A stretch of 64,000 nucleotides of DNA from Clostridium sp. 'deep sea' (GCF_014931565.1 NZ_CP063353.1:1550001-1614000); one strand, 5' to 3'. Counted from the stretch's first letter, positions 1 through 15,625 are shown. The notes: generated from the sequence alone by a model not told the origin. Translations and numbers: made by a program.

Positions 1-512
1 CACATGTGTTTTGGAATATTTACTCTCCAATATCTTCTTAAATCCACCGACTCTTTCCACACCTGATTATTTAAAATCATAGACTCAATTTTTCTAATAT
101 ATTTATAATTTTCACTAAAGGCTGGGCACTCTCTTAAGTCGTCCCATAATACCTTTACTATTGGTCTAAAATAATTCTTGTCACATCTATAATATGCATT
201 TCTTGCCACAGTTGAGTCTAAAAAATTTTTTGTTAATATAGGATAACTGATTGCAATAATATAACCTAGCGTAATAACACCAAGGGCAATATCTTCACTT
301 ATTAACCAGCTGGCTGGTGTTCGATATTCAAAACCACCATGGCTCTTAACTCTAAAATCTCCTAACCTGCCATACTTTTTGCGCCTATTCATTGCAGGTA
401 TAGGTTTTTCAACCATTAACAATGGCAGAGATAAATAGTTATCGAATGCCCGTAACATTCTACTATTGGGTAAAATACTATAATGAATATGACCACCAAT
501 AGGAAACCCCAT
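1..512 (-). pseudogene. C-terminal fragment of split phiEco32-type COOH-NH2 ligase
   Basis: The minus strand is open from about 512 past the window edge at 1. It begins NTPMGFPIGGHIHYSILPNS, which carries the PIGGHIH motif of phiEco32-like COOH-NH2 ligase type 2 proteins (ATP-dependent peptide ligases of the glutamine synthetase-like fold). The matching N-terminal part, ending KGFPIG, lies at 5833-6732. The two parts are separated by the serine-recombinase element. An ATG at 512-510 lies in the attachment site, but no ribosome site precedes it. The rest of the C-terminus lies outside the window. What is seen is the motif and the split; a peptide-ligating function is inferred from the family. 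Confidence 0.75.
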
Positions 513-529
513 TGGTGTATTGTAATAAA
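494..529. other. left attachment junction of the serine-recombinase element
   Basis: CACCAATAGG at 494-503 is repeated directly at 5841-5850. Just inside, 511-529 (ATTGGTGTATTGTAATAAA) is the exact inverted copy of 5829-5847. Joining the two element ends rebuilds a 48-bp dyad (19-bp arms around a 10-bp centre with a TT core), the size and form of a large serine integrase attP. Confidence 0.8.
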
Positions 530-612
530 CTGAGATAATGAGTTATTCTCTCTTACTATTCTATGTATATGTGTTCATAAAAGGACTCAAATTTTACCTT
601 GCACCCACAATA

Positions 613-652
613 ACAACTAACGCTATGTAGGGGATGTCCTTGTGTCATCCCG
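613..652. repeat. dispersed imperfect palindrome (TAGGGG...CCCGTG family)
   Basis: The stretch GTAGGGGATGTCCTTGTGTC followed by ATCCCGTG is an imperfect palindrome. Related copies occur near 1921, 2346, 5716, 9924, 33627, 42373, 43640 and 59217, always outside genes. It behaves like a REP-type intergenic repeat. Confidence 0.5.
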
Positions 653-756
653 TGTTTATTTATAAGGAATCGTTAATAAACCACGTACCAATTTATTTAA
701 TTCAGTTTATGCTTTATAATGAAATATATTGATATACATAAATTGGGAGGGTTAAT

Positions 757-1737
757 ATGAAACTACTTATTATTGGTGGTAAAAAGTTTTTAGGATACCA
801 TGTAGCACAAGAGGCTGTAAAAAGAGGCCACCAAGTAACACTATTTAACAGAGGTAAAACTTACCCTGAGTTATTACCAGAGTTACCTACAATTATTGGA
901 GACCGTAATACAGATATCGACCGTTTAGCAAATATGCAGTTTGATGCCGTTATAGATACCTGTGCTTATTTTCCTAAGCAGGTAGAACAGGCCGTAAAAG
1001 TGTTAGGTGATAACATAAAAAAATACCAGTTAGTATCAACTATTTCAGCCTGTGATAATACCGTAGTTGGCATAGATGAAGACGGTCCTATTTGTGGTTT
1101 AGATTTTGAATCAACTGAAATTACTGGCGAAACCTATGGACCATTAAAGGCTGCCTGTGAAAAACAGCTTACAGATATGTTAGGTGATAAAGGGCTATTA
1201 ATAAGACCAGGCTTTATAGTTGGTGACCGTGACCATACCGACCGATTTAGTTACTGGCCAGTAATGATGCATAACCATAATGAAATGATAGTTCCTGAAA
1301 CAAACGATTTAAAAATTCAATTTATTGATGTAAGAGATTTAGCTATATTTATGATAGATGCTCTTGAAAAAGACCTTAGTGGAATATACCATTTAACAGG
1401 CCCTGTAGAGCCACTTAATTTTTCTAACTTTATAGAAGCCTGTCATAAAACCATAAATGAGAATTGTAAGCTAATAAAGGTTAGTGATGAATGGCTTGAT
1501 AATAATAAAATAGTAAAGCATGCTGCTTTTCCACTCTGCATTGAACTAAAAGAATTTGCGGGACTCCATAAGGTAAATATTAATAAAGCTATAAATGCAG
1601 GACTAAAAACACGAGCAATTGAAGATACCCTTAAATCAACATTAGCTTGGTATCAAGAGTATAAAGGCGATGTAAGCAAATTAGCAGCAGGAATGAAACC
1701 TAGTGACATGAAAGAGCTTATTGAAAAACTTAATTAG
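757..1737 (+). CDS. NAD(P)-dependent epimerase/dehydratase-like SDR protein
   Basis: 326 aa. The N-terminus LLIIGGKKFLGYHVAQEAVKRG is a Rossmann beta-alpha-beta nucleotide-binding motif with the GxxxxxG spacing of atypical extended SDRs (NAD-dependent epimerase/dehydratase family). GETYGPLKAACE has a YxxxK-like pair and RPGFIVGDRDHTDRF is the usual substrate-domain region. It is a cytosolic enzyme with unknown substrate. The ATG follows GGGAGGG at good distance, with TATAAT at 715-720 upstream. It is the first gene inside the integrase element and is followed by its own terminator, so it looks like cargo rather than part of mobility. Confidence 0.8.
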   Translation: MKLLIIGGKKFLGYHVAQEAVKRGHQVTLFNRGKTYPELLPELPTIIGDRNTDIDRLANMQFDAVIDTCAYFPKQVEQAVKVLGDNIKKYQLVSTISACDNTVVGIDEDGPICGLDFESTEITGETYGPLKAACEKQLTDMLGDKGLLIRPGFIVGDRDHTDRFSYWPVMMHNHNEMIVPETNDLKIQFIDVRDLAIFMIDALEKDLSGIYHLTGPVEPLNFSNFIEACHKTINENCKLIKVSDEWLDNNKIVKHAAFPLCIELKEFAGLHKVNINKAINAGLKTRAIEDTLKSTLAWYQEYKGDVSKLAAGMKPSDMKELIEKLN

Positions 1738-1740
1738 TAA

Positions 1741-1772
1741 AAAAAGCTAGCTCGCAAGAGTTAGCTTTTTTG
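1741..1772 (+). terminator. terminator of the SDR gene
   Basis: AAGCTAGCTC-GCAA-GAGTTAGCTT stem-loop followed by a T run, directly after the stop codon. Confidence 0.8.
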
Positions 1773-1794
1773 TGGTATACTTGCATTTTATTAA

Positions 1795-1839
1795 CCTGTT
1801 TAAATTCTACTTTGGGGTCAGGCTCGAAACTAGTATTTT
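1795..1839. repeat. 45-bp direct repeat, copy 1 (GGGGTCAGGCTCG)
   Basis: Matches 2019-2063 with two differences. The core TTTGGGGTCAGGC is the inverse of the GAGGCCTGACCCC ends of the small elements at 43.8 and 46.3 kb. This motif type is common at ends of REP/Y1-transposase-mobilised elements; that link is inference. Confidence 0.65.
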
Positions 1840-1920
1840 TGCTGTGGTTTGAGGTTGCTCCCTCGCTTACAACAATGTGTTTAATTTTCATTAAATATTT
1901 TTATAAGCTTAAGTTTTCGT

Positions 1921-1968
1921 CATACCATACAACGGTACGCATACACTGCGTACCCTACATAAGTACAT
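1921..1968. repeat. dispersed imperfect palindrome (CATACAACGG...CCCTACAT family)
   Basis: CCATACAACGGTACGCATAC then ACTGCGTACCCTACATAAG: an inverted GTACGCA/TGCGTAC pair in the same frame of sequence as the repeats at 59.2-59.6 kb. Confidence 0.55.
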
Positions 1969-2018
1969 TATTAGTCATACAGTTCAGTTATGCTTAAATA
2001 CCTATCGTTATATGAATA

Positions 2019-2063
2019 GCCTGATTAAATTCTAGTTTGGGGTCAGGCTCGAAACTAGTATTT
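2019..2063. repeat. 45-bp direct repeat, copy 2 (GGGGTCAGGCTCG)
   Basis: Second copy of 1795-1839, same orientation, 224 bp downstream. Recombination between the copies would delete the intervening palindrome. Confidence 0.65.
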
Positions 2064-2098
2064 TGTTTATGCATTGTATTAATGTATAATTTTCTCTA

Positions 2099-2263
2099 TT
2101 AATCGCTAATTTTAATTTCGATATTATTGTTACTAGCAAATACTCTTACCATTTTTATTGCCATAGCTTTTATTTTAATTGGATACTTAGCTATTATTTC
2201 ATCCTTACTTAGTTTTTCATTATTAATTACATGTACAACATTCCAGTTTTTTATATGTACCAC
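2099..2263 (-). CDS. small uncharacterised protein, 54 aa, possibly a fragment
   Basis: Open frame too short for routine calling. From a GTG at 2263 it reads VVHIKNWNVVHVINNEKLSK and goes on with a KYPIKIKAMAIKMVRVF stretch to a stop at 2099. The composition (lysine, isoleucine, regular hydrophobic pattern) is protein-like. The frame is closed by a TAA only two codons upstream of the GTG, and no strong ribosome site is visible, so it may be the tail of a decayed gene. I do not recognise the family. Inside the integrase element, divergent from the recombinase. Confidence 0.4.
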   Translation of the reverse strand: MVHIKNWNVVHVINNEKLSKDEIIAKYPIKIKAMAIKMVRVFASNNNIEIKISD

Positions 2264-2345
2264 CTTCTTTTAATGCAGTTATATATTTATATGAGAATAC
2301 GGGTTGTACACTTTACAATTTACTTTTTTTGAAAGCTTAAGTTCT

Positions 2346-2397
2346 CGTAATGCCATACAAGGATACGCATACAATTCTTACTCTACACAAGTACAAT
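2346..2397. repeat. dispersed imperfect palindrome, degenerate copy
   Basis: Reads TAATGCCATACAAGGATACG and CATACAATTCTTACTCTACA, related to 1921-1968 but with a decayed right arm. Confidence 0.45.
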
Positions 2398-2424
2398 ATT
2401 ACAAATAATTTTAAGTGAATTAAA

Positions 2425-2461
2425 TCACCCCTTTTAACAATATAAATGTTATAAGGGGTGA
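2425..2461 (+). promoter_or_regulatory. inverted repeat enclosing the recombinase ribosome site
   Basis: TCACCCCTTTTAAC and GTTATAAGGGGTGA form 14-bp arms with one mismatch around a 9-nt loop. The right arm holds the AAGGGG Shine-Dalgarno sequence 4 to 11 bases before the recombinase ATG. As RNA it would bury the ribosome site; as DNA it could be an operator for autorepression. Confidence 0.6.
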
Positions 2462-2465
2462 ATTT

Positions 2466-3980
2466 ATGAAAAAGGCAGCATTATATATTAGAGTTTCTAC
2501 TACTGGGCAAGCTGAAGAGGGTTTATCTATACCGGCACAAAAAAAGTTACTTAAGGAATATGCCTTAAAGCATGACTATGTTATTAGTGCTGAACATATT
2601 TATATAGATGCTGGTGAGTCTGCTAAATCAGCAGATAGGCCTAAGTTTCAATTAATGATAGCCAATGCCAAAGTAAAGCCCAAACCTTTTGATGCTGTTT
2701 TGGTTCATAAAACAGATAGATTTGCCCGTAATAGGTTAGACAGCTCGGTATATAAAACTCTGTTACGTAAAGAGTGTGGTATTGATGTTATTTCTATAAC
2801 TGAAAACTTTAGTGATGATCCCTATGGTGTAATGATGGAAGGTATTATGGAGTTATTTGCTGAGTTTTACTCACTTAACTTAAGTACTGAGGTACGTAAA
2901 GGCATGAGTGAGGCTGCAGGCTCGGGCATTGCTTTAGGTAGAGTGCCTTTTGGTTTTGTTATTGACCCTAATACTAATAAGTATGTTATTAGTGAAAATC
3001 AGGCAGAAATCATAAGGTATATTTATGAGCTGTATGTTAAAGAGGGTTATGGTGTTGATAGTATTCATACTTATTTAAACTCTAAGGCTGCAGAACATAA
3101 ATTTGGTAAGTCTTTAAGAGTGCAAAGCTCTAAGGCCCAAAAAAAGATTCATTACTTTGGTAAAAAGCGTGAGCTTAAATGGTCGGCTCATGCTATTAGA
3201 TATATTTTAAAGAACGATGTTTATACAGGTGTTTTTAGGTGGAAAGCAAAAGATAAAGAGGAAATAGTTATTAAAGATAACCACCCTGCTATTATAGCTG
3301 AATCTACATTTATAGAAGCCCAGCAGTTAATGGCTAAACGCCGTACTAGGCGTAATGGTGTTGCCCATGAGTATATGTTAAGGGGTTTAGTTAAGTGTGC
3401 TTACTGTGGCAGACAAATGGTTATTTTTTCGACTAAACGCAAAGATAAGTATTATAGCTATGTTAGGTGCAGCAATAAAAATAAAGACAGTGTATGCCAT
3501 AAAAACGGTATGCCTTTAAATGCCTTGCAGGGCTTGGTAATAGATAATTTAATACCTGTGTTAGATAACGCTAATTTGCTTGATAAGATTAAAATTGTAA
3601 GCAATAACAAGCTTAATAATGAAAAAGAAATTAATAGGGTTAAAGGTTTATTGGCTGATTTTAATAGTAAGTTCGACCGCCAAATGCAGGCGTTTGAGTC
3701 CGGTATTATTGACTTACAGCAGCTTAAACACTATAAAGAAAAGCTACAGGCTGAAAAGCAAGGGCTTGAGGCTGAGTTAGTGCTATTAAAAAAACAAGCT
3801 AATAATAGCTTGCAGATAAATGAACAAGAGTTTATTACCCAGTTAACTAATGTGGCTAAGCAGCTTAAAAGTGAAGATAATAGTGAATATAGTAAGCAGA
3901 GAGCTTTGACCAGTATTGTTGATAAAATTAAAGTTGATAAGTTTAATAAATCTATAGAAATATACTATAAAGGGGTGTAG
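2466..3980 (+). CDS. large serine recombinase (site-specific integrase)
   Basis: 504 aa, the usual length for large serine integrases. Domains in order: resolvase catalytic domain (1-150) with YIRVS, nucleophile Ser11, and the DRFARNR motif; recombinase domain (about 160-300); zinc beta-ribbon with CAYC...RCSNKNKDSVC (about 315-360); then a lysine/glutamate-rich coiled coil (about 385-450) as used for synapsis control. It would catalyse attP x attB integration and, with a directionality factor, excision. It lies within the element bounded by 48-bp-dyad half sites, so it is the likely enzyme for that junction. Translation may be limited by the hairpin that covers its ribosome site. Confidence 0.93.
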   Translation: MKKAALYIRVSTTGQAEEGLSIPAQKKLLKEYALKHDYVISAEHIYIDAGESAKSADRPKFQLMIANAKVKPKPFDAVLVHKTDRFARNRLDSSVYKTLLRKECGIDVISITENFSDDPYGVMMEGIMELFAEFYSLNLSTEVRKGMSEAAGSGIALGRVPFGFVIDPNTNKYVISENQAEIIRYIYELYVKEGYGVDSIHTYLNSKAAEHKFGKSLRVQSSKAQKKIHYFGKKRELKWSAHAIRYILKNDVYTGVFRWKAKDKEEIVIKDNHPAIIAESTFIEAQQLMAKRRTRRNGVAHEYMLRGLVKCAYCGRQMVIFSTKRKDKYYSYVRCSNKNKDSVCHKNGMPLNALQGLVIDNLIPVLDNANLLDKIKIVSNNKLNNEKEINRVKGLLADFNSKFDRQMQAFESGIIDLQQLKHYKEKLQAEKQGLEAELVLLKKQANNSLQINEQEFITQLTNVAKQLKSEDNSEYSKQRALTSIVDKIKVDKFNKSIEIYYKGV

Positions 3981-4340
3981 TTTTTTTCCACGGTGGCTTC
4001 CACAATTAAACTATCTTGGCGTCATACACTTAAATCTGACACCATAATAATCGATTATTTTAATATTACTATTAATCGATTTACAAGTGATTGATAGTAG
4101 CTGAAAGATATAAATATATCTTTTTCCTAACTTAAAGTACTTTATTCTTTTATAGTTTTGAGGTGTTGTTTTTTTTATTATTGATTACAGCAACTACAGC
4201 ATGTGGATTTAAGCAATTAGTTAGATTAGTTAAAAGCTTATTAACTACCTACTCATGACTCCATGTATTTCATTAATACTATTATACCAAAAATAAATAC
4301 TCTCTTATATTATTAATAAAGAGAATATTAAATTTAGATA
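3981..4340. other. intergenic, no supported gene
   Basis: Between convergent genes. An inverted pair AATCGATT...AATCGATT lies at about 4049-4081. A very short plus frame with GAGGTG upstream (about 4169-4258, 28 codons) is seen but not supported further. Confidence 0.4.
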
Positions 4341-4610
4341 TTAATTTTTCTTGCTAATAATAGATTCAACTAGTTCTTCTATATCATTATATGATGCTAA
4401 ATCGAACTTAAAATAATTATCGTAGCTACCTAATTTTTTAGGAAGATCATCACTTTTATTAATACTAATCATATCTGGCCATAAACCAAGCCAATAAGTT
4501 ATATCATTCTTGGTTATTGACAAAGAATACATTGGTCCAGTACGAAATTCATCAGTTTTCAAAGGTTTATGCTTGTCTTTAAATATTATTTTATTAACTT
4601 TATTATACAA
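4341..4610 (-). CDS. uncharacterised small protein, 89 aa, TTG start or 5'-truncated
   Basis: The reading frame ends ELVESIISKKN and contains TYWLGLWPDMISINKSDD. No family recognised. The only in-frame start is TTG at 4610, without a good ribosome site. The frame stays open upstream to about 4662 with coding-like residues, so the gene may have lost its 5' end. It lies in the integrase element, convergent with the recombinase and divergent from the membrane-protein triplet. An accessory role (excision factor or immunity) cannot be excluded or shown. Confidence 0.45.
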   Translation of the reverse strand: MYNKVNKIIFKDKHKPLKTDEFRTGPMYSLSITKNDITYWLGLWPDMISINKSDDLPKKLGSYDNYFKFDLASYNDIEELVESIISKKN

Positions 4611-4762
4611 TTCTTTATTGTTAATGTTATTTAGCAGCTTTGTCTTAAATGTAATATATCATATTTTAAGATACTTGTTATCAGTTCATTAAAATAATTA
4701 TGTACTATTATATAAATTTTGGATATATGGTATTATTTAATGTATGACATTAGGAGATTATT

Positions 4763-5026
4763 ATGAAAGATAAAACTAAAGGTATCAGTTTATTAATTAT
4801 TTTAGGTATTATATATGGCTATGTTATGAGTATTCTTTTGAGTTTAGGATCAAGTCTAAATGATAGAAAAATAAGATTTGTAATTATAATGATAATAGTC
4901 ATTGTAGGTCCAATGATAATGCGTTGGGTTGCAAATAAGTTCTTAAGCAAAAACAGATTTGTTGCTGGGTGTATAGCTCTTTTTACAGGAGTTGTATTTG
5001 CATGGGTATTTTACAGGTTAGGTTAG
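4763..5026 (+). CDS. small membrane protein, paralogue 1 of 3
   Basis: 87 aa. Starts MKDKTKGISLL, the signature shared by the next two genes. About three hydrophobic helices: residues 9-29, 37-56 and 66-85. The ATG follows AGGAG. A promoter-like AT-rich stretch precedes it (TATATGGTATTATTTAATG). No known family recognised. The gene starts a three-gene operon inside the integrase element; function unknown. Confidence 0.7.
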   Translation: MKDKTKGISLLIILGIIYGYVMSILLSLGSSLNDRKIRFVIIMIIVIVGPMIMRWVANKFLSKNRFVAGCIALFTGVVFAWVFYRLG

Positions 5027-5033
5027 GTTTAAT

Positions 5034-5294
5034 ATGAAAGATAAAACAAAAGGAATTATAGTATGTTGTATAGCTGGGCTAATTGGTGCAATAGGTTGTG
5101 TAATTAGTATTTATTTACCGAGAAATTATATAATAAGATTTTTGATGTTATTATTTCTTGTGATTATACCCCCTTCAATAACTAGCTCAGCAGTGAGTAC
5201 TTATTTAAATGGGAATAGACGGCTTGGTATTTTAATATCTTTAGTACCTATGTTTTTATTGCTGCTTGCTTTAACTATAGGTAATTCGATATGA
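5034..5294 (+). CDS. small membrane protein, paralogue 2 of 3
   Basis: 86 aa. Starts MKDKTKGIIVCC and has hydrophobic helices near 8-28, 34-55 and 66-84, the same plan as its neighbours, with little identity beyond the first eight residues. Starts 7 bp after gene 1 and ends overlapping gene 3 by four bases (ATGA), so the three are translationally linked. Function unknown. Confidence 0.68.
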   Translation: MKDKTKGIIVCCIAGLIGAIGCVISIYLPRNYIIRFLMLLFLVIIPPSITSSAVSTYLNGNRRLGILISLVPMFLLLLALTIGNSI

Positions 5295-5557
5295 GAGATA
5301 AAACCAAAGGTATTTTAATATGTTTGTTGTCGGGAATAGTATTTATTACGATTTTTGCAATGGGACTTGATTTGGAACCAGAGTGGTTGAGTTATTTATT
5401 ACTATTTTTAGGTGTTTCAACTTCATCTTCATTAACAAGGTCAGCTATTAAAAGATATTTAGATGAAGATAGCTTTGTGGGTTGGTCTTATACTGGTATG
5501 CCAATTATTTTAGGATTTTTTATAGTATACATAGCTATTTTAAAAAAAACATTTTAG
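5291..5557 (+). CDS. small membrane protein, paralogue 3 of 3
   Basis: 88 aa. Starts MRDKTKGILICLLSG, with three hydrophobic segments and a short charged loop (RSAIKRYLDEDS) like the ANKFLSKNR and STYLNGNRR loops of its neighbours: a basic residue, then N/D/E-rich turn between helices 2 and 3. Overlaps the previous stop as ATGA. Together they look like a duplicated and diverged subunit set. Confidence 0.68.
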   Translation: MRDKTKGILICLLSGIVFITIFAMGLDLEPEWLSYLLLFLGVSTSSSLTRSAIKRYLDEDSFVGWSYTGMPIILGFFIVYIAILKKTF

Positions 5558-5828
5558 ATGTTAATAGGTGTAACAATTACTTTATGTTAGCTATTAAAGT
5601 ATACTAAAAGCATGCTACTTTATAAAAATTCACTTCTTTAGATAGCTGAAAAAGTCGCTCTCGGAAGTATTAAAATTGTTTTTTTAGGGTAGGATATTTT
5701 ATTTTAAAAATCCCTGTCATACGAAATTTAGCAAGAAAACGCATACTACTTGTATTACGTTTCCCTACTAAATTTCTAGCTCCTTGACAACAGACTTTTC
5801 AAAACACAGTAAATTACCAATATATGTA
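5558..5828. other. right inner flank of the element with a long imperfect palindrome
   Basis: No gene. At 5720-5776 GAAATTTAG...CTAAATTTC forms a long imperfect hairpin enclosing ACGCATACTACTTGTATTACG, a member of the CATAC...CCCTAC repeat family. Confidence 0.5.
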
Positions 5829-5850
5829 TTTATTACAATACACCAATAGG
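5829..5850. other. right attachment junction of the serine-recombinase element
   Basis: TTTATTACAATACACCAAT (5829-5847) is the exact inverse of 511-529. CACCAATAGG (5841-5850) is the direct repeat of 494-503. The interrupted ligase frame stops here as FPIGVL-stop, two codons into element DNA. Confidence 0.8.
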
Positions 5851-6732
5851 GAATCCTTTTAACGGGCAACTGCCTGCTATCCATGCTACATTGTTACATG
5901 GTATATAGTGGATTCCCTTTTGCATTGTTTTACGAATATTTTCTACTAATTGTTTTGGATTATTAGCAGGATTTGGTCTAAGCTCGGCTAACGGATAACC
6001 ATGTCGTGGATAATAAATTGCTCTATCATCTGTTCCTACTGTTCCATTACGAGGAAAATATTCTGATGCTATTAACCACCTTCTTGTGATGCGATCATAT
6101 AATAAAAACTCCGGATCGGCACCTAATTTTAGATTAGTCCAACTCTCAGTTTTTGGTTTTTCTACAAACCTAATCTCATTGCTCCATAAGTTTTTTTCAC
6201 GATTAATCCATTTACTCCATAATCCTAAAGACCGCTCAGATAAGTTATTGGCAATTTCTATAGACTGTACAAACTTTGTATCGCTATTAGAAACGCATAC
6301 CGTCACTACACCAAAATCTAAACCCAATGAATAGAGCGTTTTTACTGCTATTTCACAAACAATTTTGGTTGTTTTAAGACTCATGTTTTTTATTTGCACA
6401 TAATTTTTGTTTTTAGAATAACGAGCCATTACCCTAATAACTTGCAAATCAAAAACATCTATAATATACTTGGTTTTCCATCTATAATTGTGTGAATCGC
6501 TTCTAATATAATTAATTCTTTCTCCCTTTAAAATACTCTCTACTCTGTCTTCGTAATTTAAGATACTTATATTTTGGTTAAAAGTATAATAGGTACCTAA
6601 GCTTTCATTGTTATGAGAAAAATTTAGTACAACATCAGCTTTATCAATAACATCACAACTATTTATTCCGGACACCAAGGATCGTAATTTATTTACATTA
6701 GCATTAGAGCAGCCTGTAACGGCAACTCTCAT
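5833..6732 (-). pseudogene. N-terminal part of split phiEco32-type COOH-NH2 ligase
   Basis: 299 codons before a stop supplied by the inserted element. The first ~200 residues are a lineage-specific N-terminal region. Then come GADPEFLLY, GTVGTDDRA and LAELRPNPANNP, the metal/ATP-site motifs of phiEco32-like COOH-NH2 ligase type 2, and CPLKGFPIG, where the protein is cut before GHIH. Family members form amide bonds between a carboxylate and an amine using ATP. The ATG directly follows the stop of the ATP-grasp gene, so the two form one operon. Active only if the element is excised. Confidence 0.8.
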
Positions 6733-8136
6733 TTACTCACCCCCTGGCCTGACAGTGAACCCAGCTAAATAACCTGCATAGTCTATAATTCTTCGCGATG
6801 AGAGTCTAGCACTCTGAGGTATTCTCTGGACATCTGTAGAAATATCACGTGCTGGACGAGAGTTAACTTCAATTAACCAAAGGTATCCGTATACATCCAT
6901 AGCTAAATCAAGACCTAACTCTCCAAATTTTATTTGCATTGAACTCTCTAACTGGTTACATACGTCTATACTATAGTTAATTATTGCTGTTTTAAGCGTT
7001 CTATAGCTTGTATGTTTACCAGCATTTCTCTTAAGTATATAATAAACAGATGTTAAACTGCCTCCATGTTCAAAGTTGCTAACTTTGCTACCATCAGCGG
7101 CAACCCTACCAATGAATGTAGTAAATTTCCAATCACCTTCACTGTTTTTTTGCATTAACACTCTTATGTCTGCGGGTTTAGAATTAGCATAAGATAAATT
7201 TAATCCTTGCTGTACTATATATCTTTTACGTCTAATTAATCTTCCTACAAATTTAGATAATTCTTGCGGATGACCTACACACCAAGCACTCTCATCACCT
7301 TGCCAGTTGATATAATGGCCATAATATCCGTATCTGTTTTTGGTAACCCAGCAAATACCTTTACCATGGCTCCCATTCACAGGTTTAATATAAATTTGCC
7401 GATACCGATTTAACATGTAGTATATATCGTTCATGTCAACACATAATCTTGTTTCGGGCATGTGTCTTCGTATAGTAGAATTTGGAGATAAATGTTTGTA
7501 AACATCCCATTTATCAAGATAGCTTTTGTTAAAATAATTTGAGTTACAGGTATCTATTAAAAAGTTACGTGTTCTTCTTACTCTAGGCTTACGTTGAAGC
7601 CTTCTACTTAAAACACGGTCATATACTACATCTGGAATAGGAAATTTTCTTTTTACCCATCGTTTGCTTTTAAATTTAAAGTAATAGCCAGTTAATGTTA
7701 ATTTACTGTAATCGATGTTTTGAGGTCCAAAAACGTAAACTAGTGCTCCATTACGTTGACCTGCCAATTGAATTTCCTGTATTAACCTATTAATTTCACC
7801 ATAGGGGTTACTTGCAGACCCTGTTCTAATAGCATAAAGTCCTAATATAGGACCTAAACTCAGTTGATTAAAGCCTTGATTATAGTTTACTTTCACACTT
7901 ATATCAGATGGTATATTTAGTTTCTTTAAAATAGCAGTGCTAATTTTAATAACTTCTTCATTATGGAATGATGTTAAATCTACTACTGCGTCACTAATGC
8001 AAGTACCAGCCTTAAGCTGGATGGCTTGCTTTGACCTAAAACTGCATATTCTTGCTAAACCTCTATTTGGTACAAACACAAGCTCATCTGAAACAATTTC
8101 TTCTATTCTATATGTTTTAATTTCCTTATGTTTCAC
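6733..8136 (-). CDS. YheC/YheD-like ATP-grasp protein (spore-coat associated)
   Basis: 467 aa. The N-terminal half resembles the region found ahead of the ATP-grasp fold in YheC/YheD proteins (SLGPILGLYAIR). The C-terminal half has YIKPVNGSHGKGICWV (ATP-grasp lysine and glycine loop) and GLDLAMDVYGYLWLIEVNSRPA (Mg-binding D/E-x-N). ATP-grasp enzymes of this family are predicted to make peptide-like or amino-acid conjugates, and the Bacillus homologues are spore associated. It is followed with no gap by a second predicted amide-bond-forming ligase, which argues for a two-step modification. The substrate is not visible. Confidence 0.8.
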   Translation of the reverse strand: MKHKEIKTYRIEEIVSDELVFVPNRGLARICSFRSKQAIQLKAGTCISDAVVDLTSFHNEEVIKISTAILKKLNIPSDISVKVNYNQGFNQLSLGPILGLYAIRTGSASNPYGEINRLIQEIQLAGQRNGALVYVFGPQNIDYSKLTLTGYYFKFKSKRWVKRKFPIPDVVYDRVLSRRLQRKPRVRRTRNFLIDTCNSNYFNKSYLDKWDVYKHLSPNSTIRRHMPETRLCVDMNDIYYMLNRYRQIYIKPVNGSHGKGICWVTKNRYGYYGHYINWQGDESAWCVGHPQELSKFVGRLIRRKRYIVQQGLNLSYANSKPADIRVLMQKNSEGDWKFTTFIGRVAADGSKVSNFEHGGSLTSVYYILKRNAGKHTSYRTLKTAIINYSIDVCNQLESSMQIKFGELGLDLAMDVYGYLWLIEVNSRPARDISTDVQRIPQSARLSSRRIIDYAGYLAGFTVRPGGE

Positions 8137-8426
8137 AGTTTCACCTCAGTCTGGCATACAACTGCTCTTTTCTGGAATATAATATGTTTTTGTTTTAGAA
8201 AAGGGAACTATCAACTAGGGATATTTGGGTAGTACATATGGCATAATAATTGACTTAAATAACCTTAGTTTTAATACTAAACTATTTGTAATAGTTTAGT
8301 TAAAATCATTGATACTTTAAAATTGATTTATCACTCTATCTTGCTAATATTATATGATATAATTACATCTAATAATCGTTATAATTACTTAGGTTTTCAT
8401 ATAAAATTAACATACGGAGAAAAACC

Positions 8427-14314: not shown

Positions 14315-14797
14315 TATTCAACACCTAATTAATAAAACCTGCAAGTTTATTGTTACAAATCTATGTTTGCTTAGTTTTTTACATAATATTTTTGGTTTTA
14401 GCCTAATACTTACTATATAAGTATGGCTTTATTGAAAAATAATAATACTTTAGGCTTATATTTAAATTAATCTAAGAGGTAAACTAACAAATGGGGCTGT
14501 AGGTAAATATAAAAGCTTTTAAATAACATGTTAGAGAATTGCTTGGCTATGGTTTAAGCCTAAACTGCACCGAAATACGTTTAGCACAATGTGGTAATCT
14601 TAAGCTAATGGCTTGACTTTTGTTAGTCGAAACATGGAGTAAAAATTGTGAGGACGTAGCAAATTTTTTGGCAGTAATTGCATTTGGATACGTCAACAAT
14701 GAGATTGGGTTTTGTGAGCACCTATTTAACACATAAAGACAGCCAGAAAACTAAAAATTCTATTTTCCGACCATCTTATAACACGTTACTTATTTTA
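14315..14797. other. intergenic, nothing recognised
   Basis: AT-rich gap between two minus-strand genes. Frames seen on both strands near 14.5-14.8 kb overlap each other and lack ribosome sites. Confidence 0.4.
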
Positions 14798-15625
14798 TTA
14801 TTGTATATATTCTATATCTTTAATAGTGATTTCTATATAATTAAACTTAGATTGATCTAAGTCCCATTCAGCGTGACCAGCTAAAGGTAAATAAATGTCA
14901 CTTAATACACCCCATTTATTAAGTGGAGTTGACCATTTACGAGCTATATTTCCTTCATCTGCCATATACCATCTATTACACTCAAAGTTTAAGAGTTTAT
15001 TTTCGCTAATGGTTAACTCCGCAGTAGTAGTTATTGCTGAATCTATAAAAGTAGCCAGTAGTTTATTTTCTGCTGTTTGCTGATAATGCAGTTTATTACT
15101 TAAGTACATTTGAGGAAACCACATTATTTCATTCAGATAACGAGAGTGTGATCCTTCATTAACCTCTTTGCCAGTGGCATTCACTACCGTAAAAAATGGC
15201 AACACTTTAATTTTCATATAACCTTTGCCCTCTTGGTAAATGTCCATTCCTCTGATTATGGGTATCCCTAAAATTTTAATAGTAGTATTCCAAACAAAGG
15301 CAGGTTTATCTAGTCGATAATACTGTTCAGCTGTAAAGCTAAGCCATTTACCATTAGGCTTAAGTCTTATTCTACCCTGCTGTTCTAATCTAACTTTATT
15401 AACATATGGCTTACCAACTAAACCACTCTTAGCTAAATAGTTCTGCATAAGGGGTGGTAGTCTGTTTAAGTCTGCTTTAGATATTGTGCCCTGTGCTAGT
15501 GGTTTGTCTTTAAATATCTCTTTTACTTTAGCATTATAGGCCCTTTGAAAGCTATAATTACTATAGCTAAATGTTACAATTAAAAGTACAATTAGTACCA
15601 TAACTATTTTTAAAAAAATTCTCAT
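14798..15625 (-). CDS. DUF6544-like membrane-anchored protein
   Basis: 275 aa. Residues 5-25 form an N-terminal membrane anchor. The rest matches the pattern of DUF6544/DUF6920-type proteins: LPPLMQNYLAKSGLVGKPYV, RLEQQGRIRLKPNGKWLSFTAEQYY and FVWNTTIKILGIPIIRGMD. Function unknown; members are extracytoplasmic. The ribosome site TAAGGAGG lies 5 to 12 bases before the ATG. It is a single gene driven by a near-consensus promoter covered by tandem dyads, so expression is probably tightly repressed. No regulator gene is adjacent. Confidence 0.72.
   Translation of the reverse strand: MRIFLKIVMVLIVLLIVTFSYSNYSFQRAYNAKVKEIFKDKPLAQGTISKADLNRLPPLMQNYLAKSGLVGKPYVNKVRLEQQGRIRLKPNGKWLSFTAEQYYRLDKPAFVWNTTIKILGIPIIRGMDIYQEGKGYMKIKVLPFFTVVNATGKEVNEGSHSRYLNEIMWFPQMYLSNKLHYQQTAENKLLATFIDSAITTTAELTISENKLLNFECNRWYMADEGNIARKWSTPLNKWGVLSDIYLPLAGHAEWDLDQSKFNYIEITIKDIEYIQ

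Follow-up and report, generated by a model that had tools for sequence, protein, structure and literature searches.

Results

A serine recombinase element lies within a probable spore-envelope operon

We analysed a stretch of 64,000 nucleotides from Clostridium sp. 'deep sea' (hereafter the window; positions 1,550,001-1,614,000 of a single-contig 3.83-Mb genome, GCF_014931565.1, NZ_CP063353.1), at the start of which a gene for a phiEco32-type COOH-NH2 ligase is interrupted by an element carrying a large serine recombinase (Table 1). An earlier note on this DNA had described a ligase gene in two halves, a 5.3-kb element with the recombinase between them, a YheC/YheD-like ATP-grasp neighbour and the in-frame restoration of K-G-F-P-I-G-G-H-I-H upon excision, each of which was confirmed. 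In profile searches the two halves score above the PF14395 cut-off separately, and the domain is full length after joining only. The 3' half, which continues past the window edge, occupies C1:1549988-1550512 (-) of the genome (L003 9988-10512). The reading frame of the N-terminal half terminates in KGFPIGVL. When rejoined, the halves meet at KGFP-IGGH and give an in-frame protein of 465 amino acids (aa) that reads KGFPIGGHIHY across the joint, and neither half carries a frameshift or a stop codon.

The insertion measures 5.35 kb, of which about 507-5853 lies between the TT crossovers, and its main genes run opposite to the operon direction. On the upstream side the YheC/D gene adjoins the ligase 5' half with zero gap; downstream of the 3' half, outside the window, follow three further YheC/D genes and a GNAT gene, and the genes around the ligase overlap or are spaced by about 12 bases or less. 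A search of assembled genome contigs with the YheC/D neighbour as protein query returned no match. About 54 bp directly before the first YheC/D gene (CATATTATATTCCAGAAAAGAGCAGTT..ATGCCAGACTGAGGTGAAACTGTG; window 8137-8190, and L027 2147-2203 in the related genome G001 described below) differ hardly at all between the two species and are single copy in each genome, with the YheC/D genes behind the block 63% identical; this suggests a strongly constrained promoter or leader.

Table 1. Features of the interrupted ligase locus, with positions counted from the first letter of the window.
Feature	Position	Strand	Remarks
3' half of COOH-NH2 ligase gene	1..512	-	PF14395 positions 91-254; runs 12 bases past window edge
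Direct repeat CACCAATAGG, 3'-half junction	494..503		crossover dinucleotide AA at 505-506
19-bp inverted arm ATTGGTGTATTGTAATAAA, attP half-site	511..529		perfect inverted match with other arm
NAD-dependent epimerase/dehydratase, 326 aa	757..1737	+	PF01370; core cargo of both elements
Small open reading frame (ORF), 54 aa, GTG start	2099..2263	-	candidate recombination directionality factor; 68-aa homologue in G001 element, 33%
Promoter-like block AAGTGTACAACCCGTATTCTCATATAAAT upstream of small ORF	2288..2321 (approximate)	-	partly conserved in G001
Large serine recombinase, 504 aa, intact	2466..3980	+	PF00239 (Resolvase), PF07508 (Recombinase), PF13408 (Zn-ribbon)
Three tandem small ORFs, 87/86/88 aa	4763..5557	+	start M[KR]DKTKGI; hydrophobic; lineage-specific cargo
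19-bp inverted arm TTTATTACAATACACCAAT, attP half-site	5829..5847		perfect inverted match with other arm
5' half of COOH-NH2 ligase gene	5833..6732	-	PF14395 positions 1-95; 299 aa as read, native residues 1-295
Direct repeat CACCAATAGG, 5'-half junction	5841..5850		crossover dinucleotide AA at 5852-5853
YheC/D ATP-grasp gene, directly upstream of ligase	6733..8136	-	PF14398 E 5e-71; same operon; G001 order identical

The junctions form a predicted attP dyad

The 10-bp direct repeat and the perfect 19-bp inverted arms claimed in the earlier note were recovered at the positions listed in Table 1. By aligning both junctions on the rejoined attP, we placed the crossover one base past the perfect repeat, where the junctions agree again, at a dinucleotide that reads AA on the plus strand and TT on the gene strand. 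The predicted attP, TTTATTACAATACACCAAT-AGGGAACCCC-ATTGGTGTATTGTAATAAA, is a near-perfect 48-bp dyad centred on TT, as that note had proposed, with 22 of 26 positions matching on either side of the midpoint; none of the 63,930 centres in the window exceeds 21. The note had further named, as a refuting outcome, uninterrupted homologues whose sequence across the joint departs from the predicted attB. This outcome did not occur: in other families such homologues run through the joint as FP[IV]GGHIHF or a similar sequence, and in the nearest relative the gene is split at the identical dinucleotide.

The same codon is split in a second species

The ligase is present in 52 of 398 sampled genomes of the phylum and is split only in the window genome and in G001, a Bacillota metagenome-assembled genome and the single other genome sampled from the genus. 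Its domain is essentially whole and in one piece in 49 of the 50 other ligase-bearing genomes, the remaining one (G240) giving a weak partial match only. A ligase profile search of contigs returned 79 loci, split in the G001 contig only. In G001 a 5,210-bp element interrupts the gene at the identical codon and dinucleotide, and the rejoined attP is again centred on TT, with a weaker dyad (15/26; 124 of 63,930 window centres are equal or better). We considered an assembly artefact and rejected it, because the identical split occurs in two independent assemblies.

The G001 element carries a 504-aa recombinase (62% identical to that in the window), the epimerase (75%) and the small ORF (33%). In place of the three tandem ORFs it holds an NlpC/P60 gene and a 240-aa ORF. 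That NlpC/P60 gene (L027 6141-6668) closely resembles part of another downstream of the operon (14635-15615), a likeness which suggests that the element captured a neighbouring host gene.

Both ligase halves appear to be under selection

We estimated selection from the ratio of nonsynonymous to synonymous change (pN/pS) between the window genome and G001, a crude counting estimate because synonymous sites are saturated, which itself indicates that the two species diverged long ago. The two parts of the ligase gave ratios of 0.29 (5' half) and 0.22 (3' half); the unbroken YheC/D genes ranged over 0.15-0.37, and the recombinase stood at 0.30. If the gene had been permanently broken since the species split, then its halves should have decayed; instead, both are conserved. 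By these estimates both halves are under purifying selection, which would be unexpected for a permanent disruption.

The divergence of the recombinase (62% aa identity) is comparable to that of the flanking genes (58-80%). Element and host are also close in GC content, at 31% versus 33-34% in the window genome and 39% versus 40-43% in G001, and a composition that tracks the host fits what would be expected after long residence. Because the recombinase has diverged as its flanks have and GC follows the host, vertical descent would fit better than two recent arrivals of related elements.

Few genes are common to the two elements

The recombinase gene has no internal stop and its product retains all three recombinase domains. 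A strong hairpin (TCACCCCTTTTAACA...TGTTATAAGGGGTGA, window 2425-2465, z-score -4.3), not seen in G001, pairs the recombinase ribosome-binding site and may limit translation from read-through transcripts. In a search of 101 genomes, the G001 element alone held an orthologue of the epimerase (75%). Known intervening elements need a small factor, such as CD1234 (53 aa), GirX (42 aa) or SprB (PMC5025042, PMC5595907, PMC10747680), and the product of the ORF at 2099-2263, the sole small ORF common to both elements, is the candidate directionality factor here. Its homologues among 149 relatives (E 0.01) were confined to G001, save one marginal partial match. About 30 nt before its start lies a 29-bp block with a TGNACAA box followed by CATATA; 20 of its 29 positions are common to G001, a match reached by 0/300 shuffles and 0/300 random pairs. 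We conjecture that this block might be a mother-cell promoter. Two copies of the repeat TTTGGGGTCAGGCTCGAAACTAGTATTTT, at about 1800-1840 and 2030-2075 of the window, lie in the vicinity of the small ORF and may be linked to the differing orientation of the small ORF in G001.

The three tandem ORFs look like membrane proteins from their sequence; they had no family matches and were not seen in the G001 element. No phage structural, packaging or lysis genes were recognisable in the element, for which the PHROGs hits comprised only the integrase, a sugar epimerase at weak score and unknown families at marginal score, and it contains no conjugation genes. Scans for sigma-E/sigma-K consensus sites upstream of the recombinase, the epimerase and the operon gave weak matches, none common to the two species, and were not used as evidence. 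Sigma-70 sites were no more numerous than in shuffled sequence, and an Rfam search gave no match.

A related recombinase splits sigK in another family

After that of G001, the nearest relatives of the recombinase in the sampled genomes are two in G303, a member of another family (43% and 40% identical). The 40% relative is encoded by an element of about 2 kb that separates the halves of sigK, which match TIGR02846 positions 6-71 and 76-224; this split was called from a hidden Markov model match and translation. The sigK element (L122, G303:C35, 8867-11550) has a single serine recombinase and no evident directionality factor, and is perhaps a minimal skin, among the smallest skin elements. The 43% relative (L121, G303:C111, 164-3147) has a truncated gene for a calcium P-type ATPase next to it and an ORF for an XRE-like repressor close by, and probably belongs to a mobile element that uses the ATPase gene as its attachment site. 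In a tree of 13 recombinases, the window and G001 sequences pair with full support, as do the two from G303; the link between these pairs is not well supported. The closest phage integrases are about 32% identical to the recombinase, and the viral contigs searched held no close relative. The nearest solved full-length structures are complexes of the SP-beta integrase (YokA). A second, broken serine recombinase lies elsewhere in the window genome (L124, G000:C1:765788-766018), beside a transposase and a fragment of an Rhs-like repeat protein.

The ligase keeps company with sporulation genes

Spo0A and an intact SigK score above curated cut-offs in both the window genome and G001. In G002, a third genome of the family (72% complete), the ligase is absent and neither Spo0A nor SigK scored above cut-off. 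SpoIVA was found in 51 of the 52 ligase-bearing genomes, compared with 335 of 398 overall, and the exception is 61% complete. In Bacillus subtilis, yheC and yheD belong to the sigma-E regulon and are upregulated by SpoIIID, like spoIVCA (PMC517825), and YheD coats the spore (PMC7911427). Taken from sequence, there is a strong circumstantial case that the interrupted ligase acts in sporulation.

Discussion

We propose, with a probability of roughly 75%, that 507-5853 is an intervening element of the skin, SP-beta and gin kind, excised in sporulation so as to rebuild the ligase gene. The earlier note had likened it to skin and SP-beta, and that comparison has gained support from the selection on both halves, the co-occurrence with a sporulation gene and the related recombinase that splits sigK. 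In growing cells the element would be kept in the chromosome and the ligase would stay split, with the distal YheC/D genes cut off from the operon's upstream end by 5 kb whose genes mostly run the other way. During sporulation the recombinase, probably together with the small protein encoded at 2099-2263, would recombine the junction sites at TT, releasing a circle that bears the attP dyad and rejoining the coding sequence of the 465-aa amide ligase. This would also reconnect a YheC/D-ligase-YheC/D-YheC/D-YheC/D-GNAT operon for spore-envelope assembly, and since the insertion separates the upstream end from three YheC/D genes, the distal operon may be turned on by excision. As in the known cases, the event would take place in the mother cell, where the element could be lost without heritable cost, and the spore genome would probably retain it. 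Excision during sporulation is the most likely explanation, given that two long-diverged species have the gene interrupted at one and the same point and that both halves are under selection. We infer that excision occurs, and likewise its timing and cell type, the identity of the directionality factor, the effect on the operon and the substrate of the ligase.

A fuller version of this proposal, in which a minimal, phage-free element has been kept vertically since the ancestor of the genus and gates the distal part of the operon, the ligase together with three downstream YheC/D genes, with a dedicated directionality factor that has its own sporulation promoter, is one that we hold tentatively, at somewhat less than even odds. 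Several observations weigh against excision in sporulation. The element is carried by two genomes only, and the statistic for co-occurrence with SpoIVA (hypergeometric P = 8e-4) ignores phylogeny. No sigma-E/sigma-K promoter before the recombinase is convincingly conserved in both species. The small ORF is fast-evolving and oppositely oriented relative to the recombinase in the two elements, has no family or structural match, and yields a structure model of low confidence (predicted local distance difference test score, pLDDT, 64).

Serine integrases commonly target conserved genes, and the insertion might accordingly be a mobile element that uses a conserved coding sequence as its attachment site and entered the two species separately and recently, with the ligase working only in element-free strains and without developmental control. 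The differing cargo of the two elements would agree with this, as would the related G303 recombinase that sits in a gene for a P-type ATPase and has a phage-like repressor next to it. However, neither phage structural nor conjugation genes were found in the element, the closest phage integrases are only about 32% identical, and the recombinase has diverged in step with the flanking genes while GC follows each host, as for vertical descent. Moreover, recombinase, epimerase and small ORF are common to both elements, the last two found in no relative outside the genus among the genomes searched, and we regard separate entry as unlikely.

Excision could instead be real and respond to vegetative stress, or act as a phase-variation-like switch, rather than follow sporulation. 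In favour of another cue, the scans gave no convincing sporulation promoter for the recombinase. Against it, the B. subtilis counterparts of the operon genes serve in sporulation (PMC517825) and the ligase is found together with SpoIVA; a cue of this sort seems to us improbable. Very improbable is a gene that is permanently split, whether its products form a two-subunit enzyme in trans or the ligase is being lost as dispensable. In favour of such a split, each half is an open frame with a possible start, and for the C-terminal half the element supplies an ATG. But the split interrupts PIGGH, a conserved motif of the domain, the end of the N-terminal half is encoded by the element and differs between the species (IGVL versus KLILCKSDYTFL), and the C-terminal half in G001 has no ATG. 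The symmetry of the att sites would be irrelevant to a fixed split, and the ligase is not dying, because both halves are conserved.

With phage structural genes not recognisable in it, the insertion is best taken for a new and very small member of the sporulation gene-intervening elements. Only a handful of sporulation genes have been reported to be rebuilt by DNA excision, and an amide-ligase gene in a YheC/D operon would be added to them. The lineage is far from Bacillus and Clostridium, and an element of 5.3 kb with few genes would show how little is needed. Its two independently evolving copies provide comparative evidence of the continued use of the interrupted gene, and a natural test case for intervening elements as tolerated parasites versus retained regulators. 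In the open-access literature searched, we found no COOH-NH2 ligase or YheC/D locus reported to hold an intervening element, most subscription papers lying outside that search.

Intervening elements are known in sigK, spsM, spoVFB, spoVR, gerE and yabG (skin, SP-beta, vfbin, vrin, gin and yin, respectively), and SP-beta has a size of 134 kb. The recombinases of skin in sigK (B. subtilis SpoIVCA; C. difficile CD1231, with directionality factor CD1234; PMC5025042) have the same three domains as ours, and skin restores a mother-cell gene in frame, as is predicted here. The target of skin, however, is a sigma factor, and it carries phage-like genes, whereas here the interrupted gene encodes an enzyme and belongs to a probable spore-envelope operon, the element has no phage-like genes and the host sigK is intact. 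SP-beta in spsM (PMC4191935) rebuilds a spore-envelope enzyme gene, a role that we propose here too, and has inverted-repeat att sites, as here, and a small directionality factor, for which our element offers a candidate only, but it is an active prophage, in contrast to an element without recognisable phage structural genes. Recombinase-bearing insertions in sporulation genes are also represented by yin (yabG, Clostridium botulinum V73, PMC10747680), vfbin (spoVFB) and vrin (spoVR); these are prophage-like, and yin is found in one strain, as against the same site in two long-diverged species here. The closest counterpart is gin of Bacillus cereus ATCC10987 (PMC5595907), which is likewise phage-free and lies inside gerE, a short sporulation reading frame. 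It has a serine recombinase (GirC), a 9-bp common core with a predicted AA/TT cut, a 27-bp imperfect inverted repeat at the junction and a small directionality factor (GirX, 42 aa), all akin to features found or proposed here. At 28.6 kb it is larger, holds 31 genes and encodes three recombinases, whereas the element described here interrupts another gene in a distant lineage, with 5.3 kb and one recombinase.

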